A stretch of 35,716 nucleotides of DNA from Methanolobus sp. GTDB lineage: Archaea; Halobacteriota; Methanosarcinia; Methanosarcinales; Methanosarcinaceae. The position numbers and the translations under genes are program-made. The stretch is from positions 1 to 35,716 of the forward strand of contig JAASSR010000012.1 in the NCBI GenBank assembly GCA_021767785.1, in the 5' to 3' direction. Shown here piece after piece: positions 1-12,302 of the stretch (positions within the stretch are counted from its first letter, which is position 1; each line of letters opens with the position of its first letter). Below the pieces are notes generated by a model. It was not told the DNA's origin. It worked only from the letters and a program-made list of their open reading frames with translations, and did no database searches.

Positions 1-9
1 GTGATAATA

Positions 10-1944
10 ATGAATCTTGGACTTGGCATAGATACTGGCGGTACATATACGGATTCTGTGATAATGAATCTTGAGGACGGATCAATAATAGATTCAAATA
101 AATCGCTTACTACTTATCCTGATATAATCAAGGGCATAATTAATTCAATTGAAGGCCTTAAAACTGAATATCTTATTAATGTAAAATTTACTTCAGTATC
201 AACCACACTCGCAACCAACACCACACTAGAAGGCAAGGGATACCCGGCAGGTCTTATACTTATTGGATATAATTTATCCCGGGATGTCCCTACCGATCAC
301 ATTCTTTCCATAGAAGGCGGGCATGATTCAGACGGGAATGAAGTAGAGCCCCTGGGCAAACTGGAGGAGGTGAAGAATTTTGTAAAAATGAATCAAGATA
401 AGGTCTCTTCCTTTGCTGTATCATCTTATTTTGGAGTGCGCAATCCGGAACATGAACTTATGATAAAAAAAATAATCCAGGATCTTACGGACCTCCCTGT
501 TGTCTGCGGACATGAACTTTCCATGGATCTTGGAGCATACGAAAGAGCTTTGACCGCACTTCTTAATGCCCAGTTGATTCCGGTAATAGACCAGTTCATA
601 AGATCAGTACGGTCTGTAATGCAGGACAAGAATATCAATTCGGTTTTAATGATGATGAGATGTGACGGTTCACTGGTCAGGATCGAAGAGGCATTGAAAA
701 AACCTGTGGAATCCATATTTTCCGGGCCTGCTGCCAGTCTGCTTGGAGCTGCACATTTAACAGGTCTCAAGGATTGCCTGACCATAGATGTTGGAGGTAC
801 GAGTACAGATATTTCTATGATTCACAATGGTATGCCTGTAATCAGTAGTTCCGGTGCCGTGATCGGAGGCTGGGATACAATGGTCAAGGCCATCAAAATG
901 AATACCTCTGCAATTGGAGGGGACAGTCATGTATGGATGTATGAAAAAACGCATATCGGACCTAACAGGGTCATACCTCTATGTCTTTGTGCTGCCGAAT
1001 TTCCTTCTATAATAAACAAATTACAGAACGCTGAAAGGATATCAAGGCGTATAATGAATGATATCATCCAGCCAACAACATTCTTCATGTGCAATGGTGT
1101 AAAATCCCATTGCCTGCATGCCTCGGAACTTGATGGAGAAGAGATAGAAATATTTGATGCAATTACAGAAGAACCTTCTTCAATATCAGATATTGCATCA
1201 AAGACAAATAAACATCCACTGATGTTCGAAAGCATACTTAGAAAGCTCATACAGAAACGATATATAAAGCAGATAGGTTTCACACCGACCGATGTTCTGC
1301 ATGTGACCGGAGACTATACCAGATGGGATTCCAATGCATCGATGTTAGGGGCTACGATACTTTCAGAATATACTTCCATGGAGTCCCTTGATCTTTGTGA
1401 CAAAATAAAAGAGGACGTAGCCAAAGGATTTGTGCTTAATCTCATTTCACACTGCGCAGATAACGTGAAGAAAACCGATCTGGAAAAAATATTGAATAAT
1501 ACAGAATTAATGAAATTCATGCTAAAGACCCCTGTAGTAATGGTGGGTGCACCTGTGACTGCATATGTGAAAGATATGAAACATTTCATTAATGCGGATA
1601 TAAGGATTCCGGAATACCATGAAGTGGGTAATGCTGTAGGTGCCCTGGTAGGTAATGTGGTCTATAGGGAAGAGGTTCTGATAAGACCCACCGCACCTGG
1701 TAGCTCACAGTATCTGCTATTCTCTGAAAAAGGAAGATACACCTTTGATGACTATCAGGAGGCACTTGAAACTGCAAATTCACTTGTAAACAGTACTGTT
1801 TCAGAGTATATGGCAGATTACGGATTAAGTATGGACAATGTCATGTTCGATCTTGAATGTAATAATATCGGTAGTGTTGGAACTGTACCTCTTGAGACAA
1901 AGATCGTGGGAATAGCTGTTGGTTCTCCAAGGAAGGTAATATGA
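10..1944 (+). CDS. Hydantoinase/oxoprolinase (HyuA)-like ASKHA-fold protein, possible corrinoid/methyltransferase-associated ATPase
   Basis: ORF 1-1944. N-terminal GIDTGGTYTDSV and internal TIDVGGTSTDIS motifs typical of HyuA/acetone-carboxylase-beta-type ASKHA proteins. ATG at 10 is the likely start (the ORF opens with GTG at the window edge). Its stop overlaps the next start (ATGA at 1941-1944). Confidence 0.8.
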   Translation: MNLGLGIDTGGTYTDSVIMNLEDGSIIDSNKSLTTYPDIIKGIINSIEGLKTEYLINVKFTSVSTTLATNTTLEGKGYPAGLILIGYNLSRDVPTDHILSIEGGHDSDGNEVEPLGKLEEVKNFVKMNQDKVSSFAVSSYFGVRNPEHELMIKKIIQDLTDLPVVCGHELSMDLGAYERALTALLNAQLIPVIDQFIRSVRSVMQDKNINSVLMMMRCDGSLVRIEEALKKPVESIFSGPAASLLGAAHLTGLKDCLTIDVGGTSTDISMIHNGMPVISSSGAVIGGWDTMVKAIKMNTSAIGGDSHVWMYEKTHIGPNRVIPLCLCAAEFPSIINKLQNAERISRRIMNDIIQPTTFFMCNGVKSHCLHASELDGEEIEIFDAITEEPSSISDIASKTNKHPLMFESILRKLIQKRYIKQIGFTPTDVLHVTGDYTRWDSNASMLGATILSEYTSMESLDLCDKIKEDVAKGFVLNLISHCADNVKKTDLEKILNNTELMKFMLKTPVVMVGAPVTAYVKDMKHFINADIRIPEYHEVGNAVGALVGNVVYREEVLIRPTAPGSSQYLLFSEKGRYTFDDYQEALETANSLVNSTVSEYMADYGLSMDNVMFDLECNNIGSVGTVPLETKIVGIAVGSPRKVI

Positions 1945-3551
1945 GCACATCTCTGGAACATATGCAAAATACGCATGCTTTGGATAATATTGATGCCCTG
2001 CGTCAGAGTGTAAACAATCGCATAGGTATCAGGGAAGATGTTGAAGAAGATGAACTAATCTATCAGATGCTGCAGGCATCCCATGATATCAAAGATCTCT
2101 TTGCATCATCTTTTGGACCTCGTGGGCTTAGTAAGTTAATAATCAGTCCCACAGATGATGTCTATCTTACAACTGACGGGAAGACGATAATTGAAGAGAT
2201 CGATGTGTTGCATCCAGTTGTTACTTCCTTTAAAAAACTTGCAATGTCCATGGACAGGGTATGCGGTGATGGTACAAAGACCGCGGTAATTCTTGCTTCT
2301 TCCTTAATCGAGAATGCTGCTAAACTTGTAGATCAGGGTCTGCATCCGACAACTATCATAAAAGGGTATCAACTTGCTCTGAGCAAAGTGTATGATATCC
2401 TGGATTATGAAACTATCCGAATATATTCTGACAATGACCTGCATTCTGTTATAGAGAATGCCAGCCTGAGTAAAAGTATTGAACCTCAACAGGCCCGTAT
2501 TATAGCAGACATTGTTTTGAATACACTTTTAAATATCAGGGATATTCATGCTGAAGATCGCATCGATCTGAATGATTATGTTAAAGTTATAAAAAAAGTA
2601 GGTGCTCCCTCTATAGAATGCATTTCAGGAATGATACTGGATGAAAAACCTTCAAGATATGACATGCCTGACCATTTGAAAAATGCGAATATCCTTATGA
2701 TAAATGGGAACCTCAAATTTGAGAGTAAGATCATAAATTCCCAGCGTAATATAAGATTCGATGGTTTTGACAATTCAACACTTCTTCTGGAAGGACAAAT
2801 GAAAGCGTTGAAAATTATGTCACAGAAGCTAATCGATTCCGGAGCTAATTTGATCCTCTGTGAAGGGGATGTGGATGAATCAGTAGAGGAATCCCTTGCA
2901 AAGCATGGTATTTTGCTTTTTAAAAAGCTGAAGATAAGAGACATGGAAATGATCTCAAAAGCAACAGGTGCAAATATAATTTCCATCAAGGATGATATAA
3001 TTCCTCATGACGTAGGATTTGTTGATGAGGTTCAAGTTAAAAAAAGAAACGGTGAATATTTTCTTTTCCTCTCTGCAGATAAACAGCCGATATCCACTAT
3101 TCTGATATGGGAACCTTTCAGATATGCCCTTGAAAAAGTTGAGGAAGCAGTAGATGATGCCATTAATAATGCAGCATTTATTTTGAAAAGTCCTCTTGTC
3201 GTTAAAGGAGGAGGAGATATTGAATTTGTACTTTCACAGATGCTCAGGAATTATTCTTCCACTGTTGAAGGAAAAGAGCAACTTGCAGTAATCGAATATG
3301 CAAACGCACTTGAAGAAATTCCCAGAACACTCGCACGTAATACAGGTCTAAATGAAGTTGACGCAATGACAACAATGCTCAATTCGTATAACAAGGGAAT
3401 TGATTGCAGAATCGATCTTACAAGAAAGATTGTTGCCAACAACCCTCCTGTATATGATTCAGCAAATATCAAACAGATGGCTGTTATCGCGGCAACAGAG
3501 GCTGTAAGCAATATGTTGAGAATTGATCAGATCGTATTGAAAAAATCCTGA
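1941..3551 (+). CDS. Divergent group II chaperonin (thermosome/Hsp60-like paralog)
   Basis: Co-linear with thermosome over full length: SSFGPRGLSKLI, TTDGKTIIEEIDVLHPVV, GDGTKTAVILASSLI, GANLILCEGDVDE, RDMEMISKATGANI, VVKGGGDIEFVLS, AATEAVSNMLRIDQIV. Several normally near-invariant positions differ. Confidence 0.85.
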   Translation: MSTSLEHMQNTHALDNIDALRQSVNNRIGIREDVEEDELIYQMLQASHDIKDLFASSFGPRGLSKLIISPTDDVYLTTDGKTIIEEIDVLHPVVTSFKKLAMSMDRVCGDGTKTAVILASSLIENAAKLVDQGLHPTTIIKGYQLALSKVYDILDYETIRIYSDNDLHSVIENASLSKSIEPQQARIIADIVLNTLLNIRDIHAEDRIDLNDYVKVIKKVGAPSIECISGMILDEKPSRYDMPDHLKNANILMINGNLKFESKIINSQRNIRFDGFDNSTLLLEGQMKALKIMSQKLIDSGANLILCEGDVDESVEESLAKHGILLFKKLKIRDMEMISKATGANIISIKDDIIPHDVGFVDEVQVKKRNGEYFLFLSADKQPISTILIWEPFRYALEKVEEAVDDAINNAAFILKSPLVVKGGGDIEFVLSQMLRNYSSTVEGKEQLAVIEYANALEEIPRTLARNTGLNEVDAMTTMLNSYNKGIDCRIDLTRKIVANNPPVYDSANIKQMAVIAATEAVSNMLRIDQIVLKKS

Positions 3552-3562
3552 GGAGAGTTTTA

Positions 3563-4687
3563 ATGCCTGATGTAATGACTTCAAAGGAACGTTTTATCAA
3601 CGCTCTTGAATTAAAGGAAGTGGACAGGGTGCCACTGGGTTATTTGTGGTTTGGAGCTGGTGATGCGGTACTTGACCGGATGAATGCGAACATGAAGGAT
3701 GTTTATTATTCTCCAAAAGGAATAGCCAGAGCACAGTTATTAGCAAGGGAAATGTATCACCATGACAATGTTATGTCTCCATGGGGTTGTTTGCTTGTGG
3801 AAGCAGAGGCATTTGGAGCAAAAATAAACATCAAGAAAGATGGTTATCCATCAATTGCAGAATTTCCTTTAAAGTCTGCAAAAGAATACGAAAACATAGA
3901 TCCAATAGATATCGAACGCTCAGAAAGAGTAAAGACCATTCAAGAGTCGATAAGCTTGCTCAAAGAACAGGTTGAGGATGAAGTTTTTATTAGCTGTGCG
4001 ATGCTTACTCCTCTCATGCTTGCTTCCCAGTTAATGGATGGGAGCAGGATGTTAATTGAAATGGTAAAGGATAGCGATAATTTCCATTCACTACTTGATG
4101 TTCTCACTGATAGTTGCATCGCCTTTGCAGACATAATGCTTGACGCAGGAGCAGACGGCGCATTTATTGAGAACGGCGGTAGCACGTCGGATCTTTTCAG
4201 CCCTGATATGGCAGAGAAATTTGGTTTTCAGTACTCTAAGAAATTATATTCACACATACAGGATAGTGGTGGTTATGTACTATCGCATAACTGTGCAAAC
4301 CATGCCTTCTATGAACTGGAAAAGGCTCTTGAACCTGATGCTTTGAACTTTTTCTTTGGAAATGTGGAAGCACTCGGGAAAAAGTATGGAGTCGATTGCG
4401 TGAAACTCCACAATCATAAACATATTGGTTGCAGTGAACGATATTGTTTCAGGGATTTCAAATACCTTACTGATTCAGGCATATGCCTGATGGGGAATGT
4501 CAATCCCTATGCATTCAATTCAGAAAGTATCGGCAATATCGCGGCCGAAGTTAAGAGTTGTATGGATGCAGCTCCAGACAGGGGCTTTATACTATCCACA
4601 GGATGTGAGATACCACTTAATACACCTCAGGAAGAGATGGAAATTCTCTGGGAATCGATGAGGTCTTACTCAGAAGTGGAGGATTGA
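3563..4687 (+). CDS. Uroporphyrinogen decarboxylase-family protein, MtaA/MtbA-like (methylcobamide:CoM methyltransferase-like)
   Basis: UroD-fold N-terminus (SKERFINALELKEVDRVPLGY). His-X-Cys (LSHNCANH) and a distal Cys (LSTGCEIPLNTP) in the positions of the Zn ligands of MtaA/MtbA. Confidence 0.8.
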   Translation: MPDVMTSKERFINALELKEVDRVPLGYLWFGAGDAVLDRMNANMKDVYYSPKGIARAQLLAREMYHHDNVMSPWGCLLVEAEAFGAKINIKKDGYPSIAEFPLKSAKEYENIDPIDIERSERVKTIQESISLLKEQVEDEVFISCAMLTPLMLASQLMDGSRMLIEMVKDSDNFHSLLDVLTDSCIAFADIMLDAGADGAFIENGGSTSDLFSPDMAEKFGFQYSKKLYSHIQDSGGYVLSHNCANHAFYELEKALEPDALNFFFGNVEALGKKYGVDCVKLHNHKHIGCSERYCFRDFKYLTDSGICLMGNVNPYAFNSESIGNIAAEVKSCMDAAPDRGFILSTGCEIPLNTPQEEMEILWESMRSYSEVED

Positions 4688-4688
4688 A

Positions 4689-6308
4689 ATGTACGGAATA
4701 GCATTAGATGTGGGAACCAGCGGCTTCAGGGCACAATTGATCGATCTGGAAACGAAAGAAGTTGTTACTACTTCAATGACAATGAAACATCCGTTACCAG
4801 GTGGGAACGTAACCGATCACCTTGACTTTGCCATATCTGTTGGAGAAGATGTGGCACACAGTATCATCATAGATGCTGTAGGAAAAATGATCGAGGGATT
4901 CGATGTAGACCCACTGATGATATCAAAGATGGCGGTATGTGGTAATCCAATACAACTATCACTTTTCCAGAATTCTGAGATACGTGATCTGGCCTATGTG
5001 GGTGAAAACATGCGAAAAAGAATGGGCATAGATAATATACAGCGTAATGCCCGAATATTCAAGGCTTCAGATATATTCCATGAAATTTTAAACCTTGATA
5101 ATTGTTTGATAAGCATCCCACCTGCCATCGAGCATGAGATCGGCGCTGACGCACTTGCCATGATGGTGGAGACGGATTTCCTCGAACAGGAAGAACCAAC
5201 TCTTGTAACGGATTACGGAACGAACGCTGAGATGGCCATAAAGGTCGGCAACAGGATAATCACGGGAAGTGCAGCCGCCGGACCTGCCATTGAAGGTCAG
5301 GGTATAAGTTGTGGTATGCTTGCCGGACCCGGAGCGATAACAGATGTTAATATGGAAGATGATGCCTGGAGAATATCTGTACTCGATGAGAACATGGAAA
5401 CTGTAGAAGGCCATCTTATAGATCCGGTAAGTGGAACAATATTTGAAGAATCGGATACAGTACCAGATGGAATCACAGGGACAGGTCTTATTTCCATTTT
5501 GTCTCTTGCGATGGAAACCGGGATAATTATCACTCCACCTAAGCTAAAATACGGAAATATCATACTGGGTGAGGGTATAGAGGTAACAGAAAAGGATATA
5601 GTAGAGGCTGGCAAGGCCATCGGTGCCATAAGAGCTGCTCAGCTAACACTGATACATGAGTCCGGGATTGAATATGAAGACCTTGAAACGATGTATATGA
5701 GCGGTGCTTCCGGGACCTATGTTGACGCTCTCAAAGCAAGAAAAATAGGATCATGTCCCGATTTTACAAATAAAACAGTGCAATTTGGAAACACATCCCT
5801 TTCCCTTGCAAGGGACATAGTTACTGAAAAAGTGCAACTGGATGTATTGATTGAATTGTCAGGGCAGATAAAGACTGATCATCTTATGATGGCAACCAAC
5901 GAAACCTTCAAGAAATTATACGCCTGTGAACTGGGGTACTGGACAGAGGGTATGTCCATGAAGGTGTACCGGAAACTTCTGAAGATGTCTAAATTGCCTG
6001 AACTTCCGGATTCTGTAGAATATCCTGTAATTGAGAAAAAAATGCGAAAAGATATCAGTAACAATGGTTCAGGTCGAATTAAGGTAGTAGAGGACATAGG
6101 AGGCACTCTTGAAGAGCTTGCAGTGGGGTGCATTATGTGCCATCAGTGCGAAAAAGAATGTCCTGAGGAAGCAATATACATCGAAAAAGAAGATGATCTC
6201 ATTGCAAAGTACAGCACTACAAAATGCCTGGGTACGGCATGCAAAAGATGTGTGAATGTGTGTCCGGTGCATGCGATCGACTACAAAGAAATTAAGCTAA
6301 TGATTTAA
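4689..6308 (+). CDS. RamA-like reductive activase of corrinoid proteins, ASKHA domain plus C-terminal 2x[4Fe-4S] ferredoxin domain
   Basis: N-terminal GIALDVGTSGFRAQLID; TDYGTNAEMAIKVGNRIITGSAAAGPAIEGQGISCGM; C-terminal CIMCHQCEKECP and CLGTACKRCVNVCP ferredoxin-type clusters. This is the architecture of RamA/DUF4445-type activases. Confidence 0.87.
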   Translation: MYGIALDVGTSGFRAQLIDLETKEVVTTSMTMKHPLPGGNVTDHLDFAISVGEDVAHSIIIDAVGKMIEGFDVDPLMISKMAVCGNPIQLSLFQNSEIRDLAYVGENMRKRMGIDNIQRNARIFKASDIFHEILNLDNCLISIPPAIEHEIGADALAMMVETDFLEQEEPTLVTDYGTNAEMAIKVGNRIITGSAAAGPAIEGQGISCGMLAGPGAITDVNMEDDAWRISVLDENMETVEGHLIDPVSGTIFEESDTVPDGITGTGLISILSLAMETGIIITPPKLKYGNIILGEGIEVTEKDIVEAGKAIGAIRAAQLTLIHESGIEYEDLETMYMSGASGTYVDALKARKIGSCPDFTNKTVQFGNTSLSLARDIVTEKVQLDVLIELSGQIKTDHLMMATNETFKKLYACELGYWTEGMSMKVYRKLLKMSKLPELPDSVEYPVIEKKMRKDISNNGSGRIKVVEDIGGTLEELAVGCIMCHQCEKECPEEAIYIEKEDDLIAKYSTTKCLGTACKRCVNVCPVHAIDYKEIKLMI

Positions 6309-6352: not shown

Positions 6353-6667
6353 ATGAAAGAAGTAAAAGTAAATTCCAGAATATGTGGTTTCACACATATA
6401 ATTAAGGGAAAAAAGGATGGTCAAAAGATAGTTGTTGATATAGATACCCCATGTGAGAAGATCAAAAAGATGGCTCATATGGAAGTCGATATGATGGAAC
6501 TGTTCGATATAAAAGAGAATACTGTAATGGAAAATGCCAAAGAGGCAAGGTGCACTTCTACATGTCTTGTGCCCTGTGCAGTGATGCATGTATGTTGTGT
6601 CGAAGCAGGTTTCATGTCAGACTCACTTACCAAAGAAGCCGAAAGCATCAGTATAGATTTTCTATGA
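6353..6667 (+). CDS. Small Cys-rich protein resembling the DUF6951-type family seen near corrinoid methyltransferases
   Basis: 104 aa; pattern VNSRICGFTHIIKG..VDIDTPCEKIKKMA..CTSTCLVPCAVMHVCCVEAGF. Begins 45 nt after the RamA-like stop on the same strand. Family assignment from memory. Confidence 0.65.
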   Translation: MKEVKVNSRICGFTHIIKGKKDGQKIVVDIDTPCEKIKKMAHMEVDMMELFDIKENTVMENAKEARCTSTCLVPCAVMHVCCVEAGFMSDSLTKEAESISIDFL

Positions 6668-11525: not shown

Positions 11526-12302
11526 TCATAAAACTTCATATTTCAATTGTTCATAACAACGAACCAGCAATTGCGGACCTGCTTTCATCTCAATTATATT
11601 GAAATCAAAAAGTCCTGCAAATTCCTCAACCATGAACTCGAATTCTTTTTCATAATACAATCCCGTGTCCATTTTAGCCACATTTTTATATCCTGCATAC
11701 TCAAAAACAAATTTGGAGCGCTTAATGTCATCAGGATCAGGAGTCATACCCGCAGATACAACCATCTCACGCCAGTGGGATGCCCACATAGGTGTCATGA
11801 AGAAAGTACCTACGCCATTAAAACTCTTAAGTTTCTCAAGATATGCGGCCCTTCCTCCAAGTACTGCACCAATACAATCATCTATCACATTCCCGTTTTC
11901 CTCTTTCAGTATACGAACCTGACAGGGTAGATCGGCAAGCTCCATTTCGATTTTACCTAGCACATTCCCACATAGTCCATAGAAAAGAAGTACACCATCA
12001 GAGTATTCTGACACCTCACGGGTCTTATCATAAACAACCTCTTTGAGATGTTCCGGTGTGGCATGCAGAGCCAGTTCAAGCATTTCAACCACCAGGGTCA
12101 GGCCGGTGTCAGAAATATATTCATATATATCGTCTTTCATAACCGAAGAAAATTCGCAACCTGCATCTTCCAGCTTGGTCACCAGTCCGCAGCAATCCGG
12201 ATCATCAACTACTAATAAATTCTCAATAGAATTATCATTCTCCACAATGTGTACAATCTCGTCCTCAAACATCCGGCAGGCAATGAAACTAATTACTGGC
12301 AT
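11526..12302 (-). CDS. DUF1638-like protein, of a type often found near methanogen methyltransferase systems
   Basis: 258 aa; MPVISFIACRMFEDEIVHIV..DDPDCCGLVTKL..LLFYGLCGNVLG..CIGAVLGGRAAYLE..FFMTPMWASHWREM pattern recognised as DUF1638-type. Confidence 0.7.
   Translation of the reverse strand: MPVISFIACRMFEDEIVHIVENDNSIENLLVVDDPDCCGLVTKLEDAGCEFSSVMKDDIYEYISDTGLTLVVEMLELALHATPEHLKEVVYDKTREVSEYSDGVLLFYGLCGNVLGKIEMELADLPCQVRILKEENGNVIDDCIGAVLGGRAAYLEKLKSFNGVGTFFMTPMWASHWREMVVSAGMTPDPDDIKRSKFVFEYAGYKNVAKMDTGLYYEKEFEFMVEEFAGLFDFNIIEMKAGPQLLVRCYEQLKYEVL

Follow-up and report, generated by a model that had tools for sequence, protein, structure and literature searches.

What does a divergent chaperonin do inside an operon for corrinoid-dependent methyl transfer? 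The question is raised by the window, the whole 35,716-nucleotide stretch of a Methanolobus sp. contig analysed here, in which a chaperonin gene occupies positions 1941..3551 of the plus strand. A preliminary description of this DNA had read the gene as a full-length, thermosome-like but divergent paralog embedded in a metabolic operon, and had proposed that it is possibly homo-oligomeric and has a dedicated client.

As had been described, the open reading frame is full-length; it starts with ATG, is intact and encodes 536 amino acids, in which the Pfam profile Cpn60_TCP1 (PF00118) is matched from position 1 to 489 of its 490 (388 bits). All NCBIfam thermosome models remain under their cut-offs (alpha, 344.7 against 450 bits; beta, 333.1 against 400; thermosome_arch, 343.2 against 671.1), and the GroEL model gives 52 bits against a cut-off of 582, so the protein does not belong to group I. 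Its full-length Cpn60/TCP1 domain and fold, its full-length lid, and its nucleotide-sensing-loop Lys and two catalytic Asp residues are those of group II. The nearest solved structures, both by sequence and by predicted fold (AF2 model, mean pLDDT 75.9), are likewise all group II chaperonins. The protein is an intact group II chaperonin under purifying selection in which the ATPase residues are kept. The alternative of a pseudogene or decaying paralog is ruled out by dN/dS values of 0.04-0.18 in ten pairs. The paralog reading had been made to depend on other thermosome genes being present in the genome, and they are: the source genome (2.33 Mb, 154 contigs) contains five Cpn60 genes, namely three ordinary thermosome subunits, one true GroEL (on contig C21) and the window chaperonin.

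The placing of this gene in a metabolic operon is confirmed by the gene spacing. A Hydantoinase_A/oxoprolinase-type ASKHA ATPase (1..1944, plus strand; PF05378 and PF01968) is a conserved neighbour whose stop overlaps the chaperonin start by 4 bp (ATGA, 1941-1944). The chaperonin is followed on the same strand by a URO-D family methylcobamide:CoM methyltransferase-like protein (MtaA/MtbA-like, 3563..4687; PF01208, 207 bits, below the MtaA/MtbA equivalog cut-offs), by RamA, the reductive activase of corrinoid methyltransferases (4689..6308; TIGR04270, 742 bits, cut-off 500), and by a DUF6951 protein (6353..6667; PF22263), which is a neighbour in ~18 loci and frequently the last operon gene. The gaps along these five genes are -4, 11, 1 and 44 bp. 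The hydantoinase-type protein is modelled with an ASKHA fold, its structural matches being ATPase subunits (of caprolactamase and of acetophenone/acetone carboxylase); its GlmL/MutL match has an E value of ~6e-6, and a role as a B12 reactivase is only weakly hinted at. Several copies of hydantoinase_A-type ASKHA ATPases (up to 8 counted) are present in most methylotrophic Methanosarcinaceae, often beside methyltransferase genes. A DUF1638 protein is encoded on the minus strand of the window at 11526-12302, ~5 kb from the operon.

The contig breaks off at position 1 of the window, and the upstream side of the operon is found on contig C104 (L116:3-2175), which ends within the first 49 amino acids of the hydantoinase-type gene (98% identical). 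This contig is the other side of the break, and the operon has therefore been split by the assembly. The genes upstream of the hydantoinase-type start on C104 encode a PAS/GAF histidine kinase, a regulator of the FilR1/Msr type and a fused Mts. Mts here denotes a protein with B12-binding_2, B12-binding and URO-D domains in one chain, which is the architecture of MtsD, MtsF and MtsH (MA0859, MA4384, MA4558); the preferred substrates of these three are dimethyl sulfide, methanethiol and both, respectively (PMC7374477).

Across ~40 orthologous loci, Mts is located immediately upstream of the chaperonin or one gene (hydantoinase-type) further up, the exceptions among the mapped loci being one with Mts downstream and one with Mts cut by the contig end. 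Near the chaperonin, these loci also encode a FilR1/Msr-type regulator, frequently accompanied by a PAS/GAF kinase. At the order level, the chaperonin is present in 34 of 150 genomes, all of which have Mts, and four genomes have Mts only. These four apparent exceptions come down to contig ends: in G061, G077 and G116 the contigs end 48-75 amino acids into the chaperonin gene at the expected place, and in G139 they end at Mts. At the phylum level, fused Mts is carried by 36 of 394 genomes; 33 genomes have both genes, 3 have the broken form (again G061, G077 and G116), none has the chaperonin only and 358 have neither (Fisher 5e-45, uncorrected for kinship). Within five genera, too, the two genes are present or absent together. 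Members of the hydantoinase-type family are found in ~76 of the 150 order genomes and in nearly all methylotrophic relatives, whether or not these have the chaperonin; RamA occurs in many genomes that have no chaperonin. At the mtsF loci and the Archaeoglobaceae loci, the chaperonin is present and the hydantoinase-type gene is not adjacent. Judged by gene content, the association with Mts is exclusive in two archaeal classes, and neither RamA nor the hydantoinase-type protein explains it. Genes of one operon are inherited together, and co-occurrence alone is therefore no proof of contact. No chaperonin accompanies Mts at the two mtsH loci examined, one in M. acetivorans and one in a relative, and those genomes carry the chaperonin elsewhere; not every fused Mts therefore needs its own copy.

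Three further observations concern these loci. The MA4384-MA4394 cluster of M. acetivorans, with mtsF first, is the longest contiguous cluster responding to HdrED repression in a transcriptome (PMC11619418), and by position its chaperonin should be MA4386. A CobW-type G3E GTPase, another possible cofactor-handling protein, often adjoins the mtsF-linked chaperonin (e.g. L066:5789-6862). In the two-copy genomes G061, G077 and G116 (L104-L108, L110), the near-identity of the copies has presumably caused the assembly to break within the chaperonin gene, which annotation of such genomes will miss.

The orthologs are confined to one family among the 150 order genomes, with 42-83% identity over residues ~10-535, and are cleanly separated from thermosomes at ~32%. 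They are found in about nine genera of Methanosarcinaceae, always with Mts, and named members include Methanolobus, Methanococcoides, Methanosalsum, Methanohalobium, Methanimicrococcus and Methanosarcina. A family profile run on the 394 phylum genomes gives complete clade members 820-930 bits and all other proteins at most 375, except two from Archaeoglobaceae (410 and 381). A scan of GTDB contigs used peptide patterns, which would miss forms diverged like those of Archaeoglobaceae, and covers other phyla thinly. Two haloarchaeal records (L152:8001-9464, L153:3586-5043) hold very divergent thermosome-like genes with the same peptide patterns and 26-28% identity. The Methanosarcinaceae clade is monophyletic with a support of 99 in the first tree and 100/99 in a rebuilt tree, which left out GroEL, the haloarchaeal divergent forms and an outlying third thermosome subunit and used a careful search and an AU test. 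In the rebuilt tree, the canonical and Mts-linked sets split at 100/100. The window protein is thus not grouped with the alpha and beta subunits; it joins a pair of M. acetivorans paralogs, and the phylogenetic check put forward in the preliminary description upholds the divergence it had claimed.

The signature motifs had been described as altered, and the readings are correct: TTDGKTIIEEIDVLHPVV (residues 77-94), GDGTKTAVIL (109-118) and VEEAVDDAINNAAFILKSPLVVKGGG are all present in the protein, and the changes are not random across 46 sequences of the Methanosarcinaceae clade. Lys113 of GDGTK is found in all 46 and Lys81 of DGK in 45 of them, and neither occurs in 27 canonical sequences. 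The retention of the motif Asp residues also holds, since Asp79, Asp110 and Asp406, together with Lys178, are each invariant (46/46) in the clade alignment. In the window, all on the plus strand, the catalytic Asp79 is encoded at 2175..2177, the P-loop GDGTKT with the family-diagnostic Lys113 at 2265..2282, Lys178 of the nucleotide-sensing loop at 2472..2474, and the catalytic Asp406 (the equivalent of Mm-cpn Asp386) at 3156..3158. Catalysis relies on the Asp of the P-loop, on two further Asp residues and on one basic residue in the nucleotide-sensing loop; in the P-loop GDGTTT, the phosphates are contacted by the first Thr and the third (PMC5635000). Because these four catalytic residues are invariant and GDGTKT alters the middle Thr only, the clade chaperonin is expected to have ATPase activity. 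By alignment, the built-in lid region (2703..2795) has no deletion relative to group II (length 51 against 49 over residues 250-300), and the N-terminus (1941..2042) is ~15 residues longer than in canonical subunits and predicted to be disordered (pLDDT < 50). The Gly/Met-rich C-terminal tail is absent from all Mts-linked forms examined. Only in the C-terminal intermediate domain does conservation within the clade (0.81) exceed that within canonical subunits (0.73).

A second group with the same gene pair is found in Archaeoglobaceae, the family to which we infer the two genomes concerned to belong. Of 55 Archaeoglobaceae genomes, 2 have Mts, and these alone also have a divergent chaperonin, which follows the Mts gene at a distance of 8-12 bp; RamA is encoded nearby on the opposite strand (L156:5642-11312, L157:102-5888). 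RamA occurs in 6 of the 55, which are both module genomes and four further ones; the chaperonin therefore tracks Mts and not RamA. No McrA was found in the two module-bearing genomes (one 96% complete, the other 54%), and the module is therefore probably not tied to methanogenesis; Mts, chaperonin and RamA could constitute a possible methyl-sulfide pathway outside methanogens. In the trees, the Archaeoglobaceae forms are sister to the Methanosarcinaceae clade. A tree that places them among Archaeoglobus thermosomes is rejected by the AU test (p = 0.0001), and nine or more residues are private to both groups (Lys81, Lys113, Leu/Val90, Cys108, Glu235, Arg239, Gly309, Glu316 and Lys329). Long-branch attraction is disfavoured by the rebuilt tree, the AU test and the private residues; very long branches remain, and the case for the sister position is strong but not final. 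Both forms have Lys, Asp, Gly and Ser/Asn at the places of Asp79, Asp110, Lys178 and Asp406, and Val for the first Thr, and are predicted to be unable to hydrolyse ATP. With the catalytic residues lost in this branch, an ATP-driven folding cycle cannot be general to the family.

Orthology of the window gene to the noncanonical Hsp60 paralogs of M. acetivorans, mentioned in the preliminary description, is supported. The M. acetivorans genome has two clade members (L085, L086) with ~47% identity to the window protein, and all three lie in one clade with a support of 99-100. A review citing Maeder 2005 gives two extra group II chaperonin genes in M. acetivorans, clustering together (PMC6420498), and we infer the clade members to be these, Hsp60-4 and Hsp60-5. 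Seven genomes have both mtsD and mtsF loci; their chaperonins are 88-97% identical and their Mts partners 53-55%. In three Methanosarcina genomes, the chaperonins within a genome are more alike (95.5-96.8%) than those of the same locus between species (83-90%), and the mtsD- and mtsF-linked copies of these genomes are sisters in the tree. This pattern points to concerted evolution by gene conversion or repeated replacement, and the likeness of the copies beside differing Mts proteins points to one interchangeable chaperonin for both isoenzymes. The second copy is broken by a frameshift or deletion in Methanosarcina G141, G105 and G124 (L119:6715-8320, L097:9620-11225 and L096:8313-9703), the other copy being intact in each, which fits redundancy. 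A survey of concerted evolution in the order reports mtmBC and mtbBC and does not list the chaperonin gene (PMC6053082). An in-frame TAG occurs in the chaperonin frame of G128 (L076:8612-10213) and may be pyrrolysine, an error or decay.

These comparisons make it reasonably probable that the chaperonin is reserved for making or maintaining the fused methyltransferase Mts of the MtsD/MtsF type. The chaperonin would be co-expressed with Mts and would probably assemble into lidded, ATP-driven rings. It would most likely fold the two-domain Mts around the corrinoid, or keep or restore Mts for reductive activation by RamA, and a single pool may serve the different Mts isoenzymes of a cell. Mts would then be the physical client, and the step assisted may be folding, cofactor loading or reactivation. 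Comparative genomics in this way supports the dedicated client proposed earlier and supplies a strong candidate for it. Production of MtsF/CmtA has been achieved in E. coli, and this would speak against the chaperonin being strictly required for folding. A bolder proposal, which can be advanced only tentatively, is that a chaperonin family specific to one enzyme, and no younger than the module shared by Methanosarcinaceae and Archaeoglobaceae, loads or maintains the corrinoid in one fused methyltransferase, and that one of its branches has turned into a pseudo-chaperonin, dead as an ATPase yet still accompanying the enzyme.

Other explanations of the locus differ in the client or in the ring. 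The clients could be RamA and the hydantoinase-type protein, the two operon ATPases with an actin fold (ASKHA), much as the eukaryotic relative CCT folds actin. Both genes adjoin the chaperonin, one of them overlapping it by 4 bp, and the modelled hydantoinase-type protein does have the ASKHA fold; but the presence of both families in so many genomes without the chaperonin, and of the chaperonin at mtsF and Archaeoglobaceae loci without an adjacent hydantoinase-type gene, makes this quite unlikely. It is very improbable that a general stress chaperonin hitch-hikes in the mts operon, since the one-to-one occurrence with Mts across two classes, the joint loss in five genera and the coverage of general folding by three thermosomes and GroEL all stand against it, even though the methyl-sulfide operons of M. 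acetivorans are responsive to energy stress (PMC11267899, PMC11619418).

A further explanation, unlikely as well but compatible with Mts as the client, is that the protein forms no rings of its own: as an alternative subunit, it would enter the rings of the canonical thermosome and adjust these to growth on methyl sulfides. Three canonical subunits are available in the same genome, and the loss of catalytic Asp and Lys in the Archaeoglobaceae forms would be tolerable if active neighbours drove the ring, although ATP-independent action there would fit too. Mixed rings are opposed by 26 fixed differences between the clade and canonical subunits, many of them in the equatorial domain, by the missing Gly/Met tail, and by the invariance of the catalytic residues in all 46 Methanosarcinaceae sequences.

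The literature searched, in which subscription papers were few, yielded neither biochemical nor genetic tests of the chaperonin, and nothing on its link with Mts, the wide clade, the Archaeoglobaceae sister or the catalytic loss there. The Mts context of the chaperonin is what is new here; the two extra group II genes of M. acetivorans are already known. Chaperonins are viewed as general folding machines, and a one-to-one tie to a single enzyme would, if true, be a rare prokaryotic client specialisation. For the long-unexplained extra chaperonins of M. acetivorans, a genetically tractable organism, a role that can be tested is now at hand, and a missing part may be added to dimethyl sulfide-dependent methane production, a methane source in marine sediments. 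The catalytically degenerate Archaeoglobaceae forms are a natural experiment on the parts of the chaperonin cycle that are required.

The window chaperonin can be compared with several known systems. It belongs to the same clade as Hsp60-4 and Hsp60-5 of M. acetivorans, whereas reviews treat the five group II genes as special to that organism and give no metabolic link (PMC6420498). Group III (bacterial thermosome-like) chaperonins are likewise a side branch of thermosomes with an operon context, but they have no nucleotide-sensing loop and have a lid deletion (PMC5635000), neither of which is seen in the window chaperonin. The canonical thermosome alpha and beta subunits give the best PDB fold matches and have the fold, lid, nucleotide-sensing loop and catalytic residues in common with it; the window chaperonin differs from them in its ~32% identity, private P-loop Lys, longer N-terminus, lack of a Gly/Met tail, metabolic operon and patchy distribution. 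RamA/RACo, the diol dehydratase reactivases and MeaB are helpers that use ATP or GTP and have their genes next to that of a corrinoid enzyme. A chaperonin as a maintenance factor of a cofactor enzyme was not found in the searched literature, in which subscription papers were few; an earlier mention of the gene neighbourhood in such a paper is possible. These helpers are ASKHA or G3E proteins, whereas the window protein is a chaperonin.
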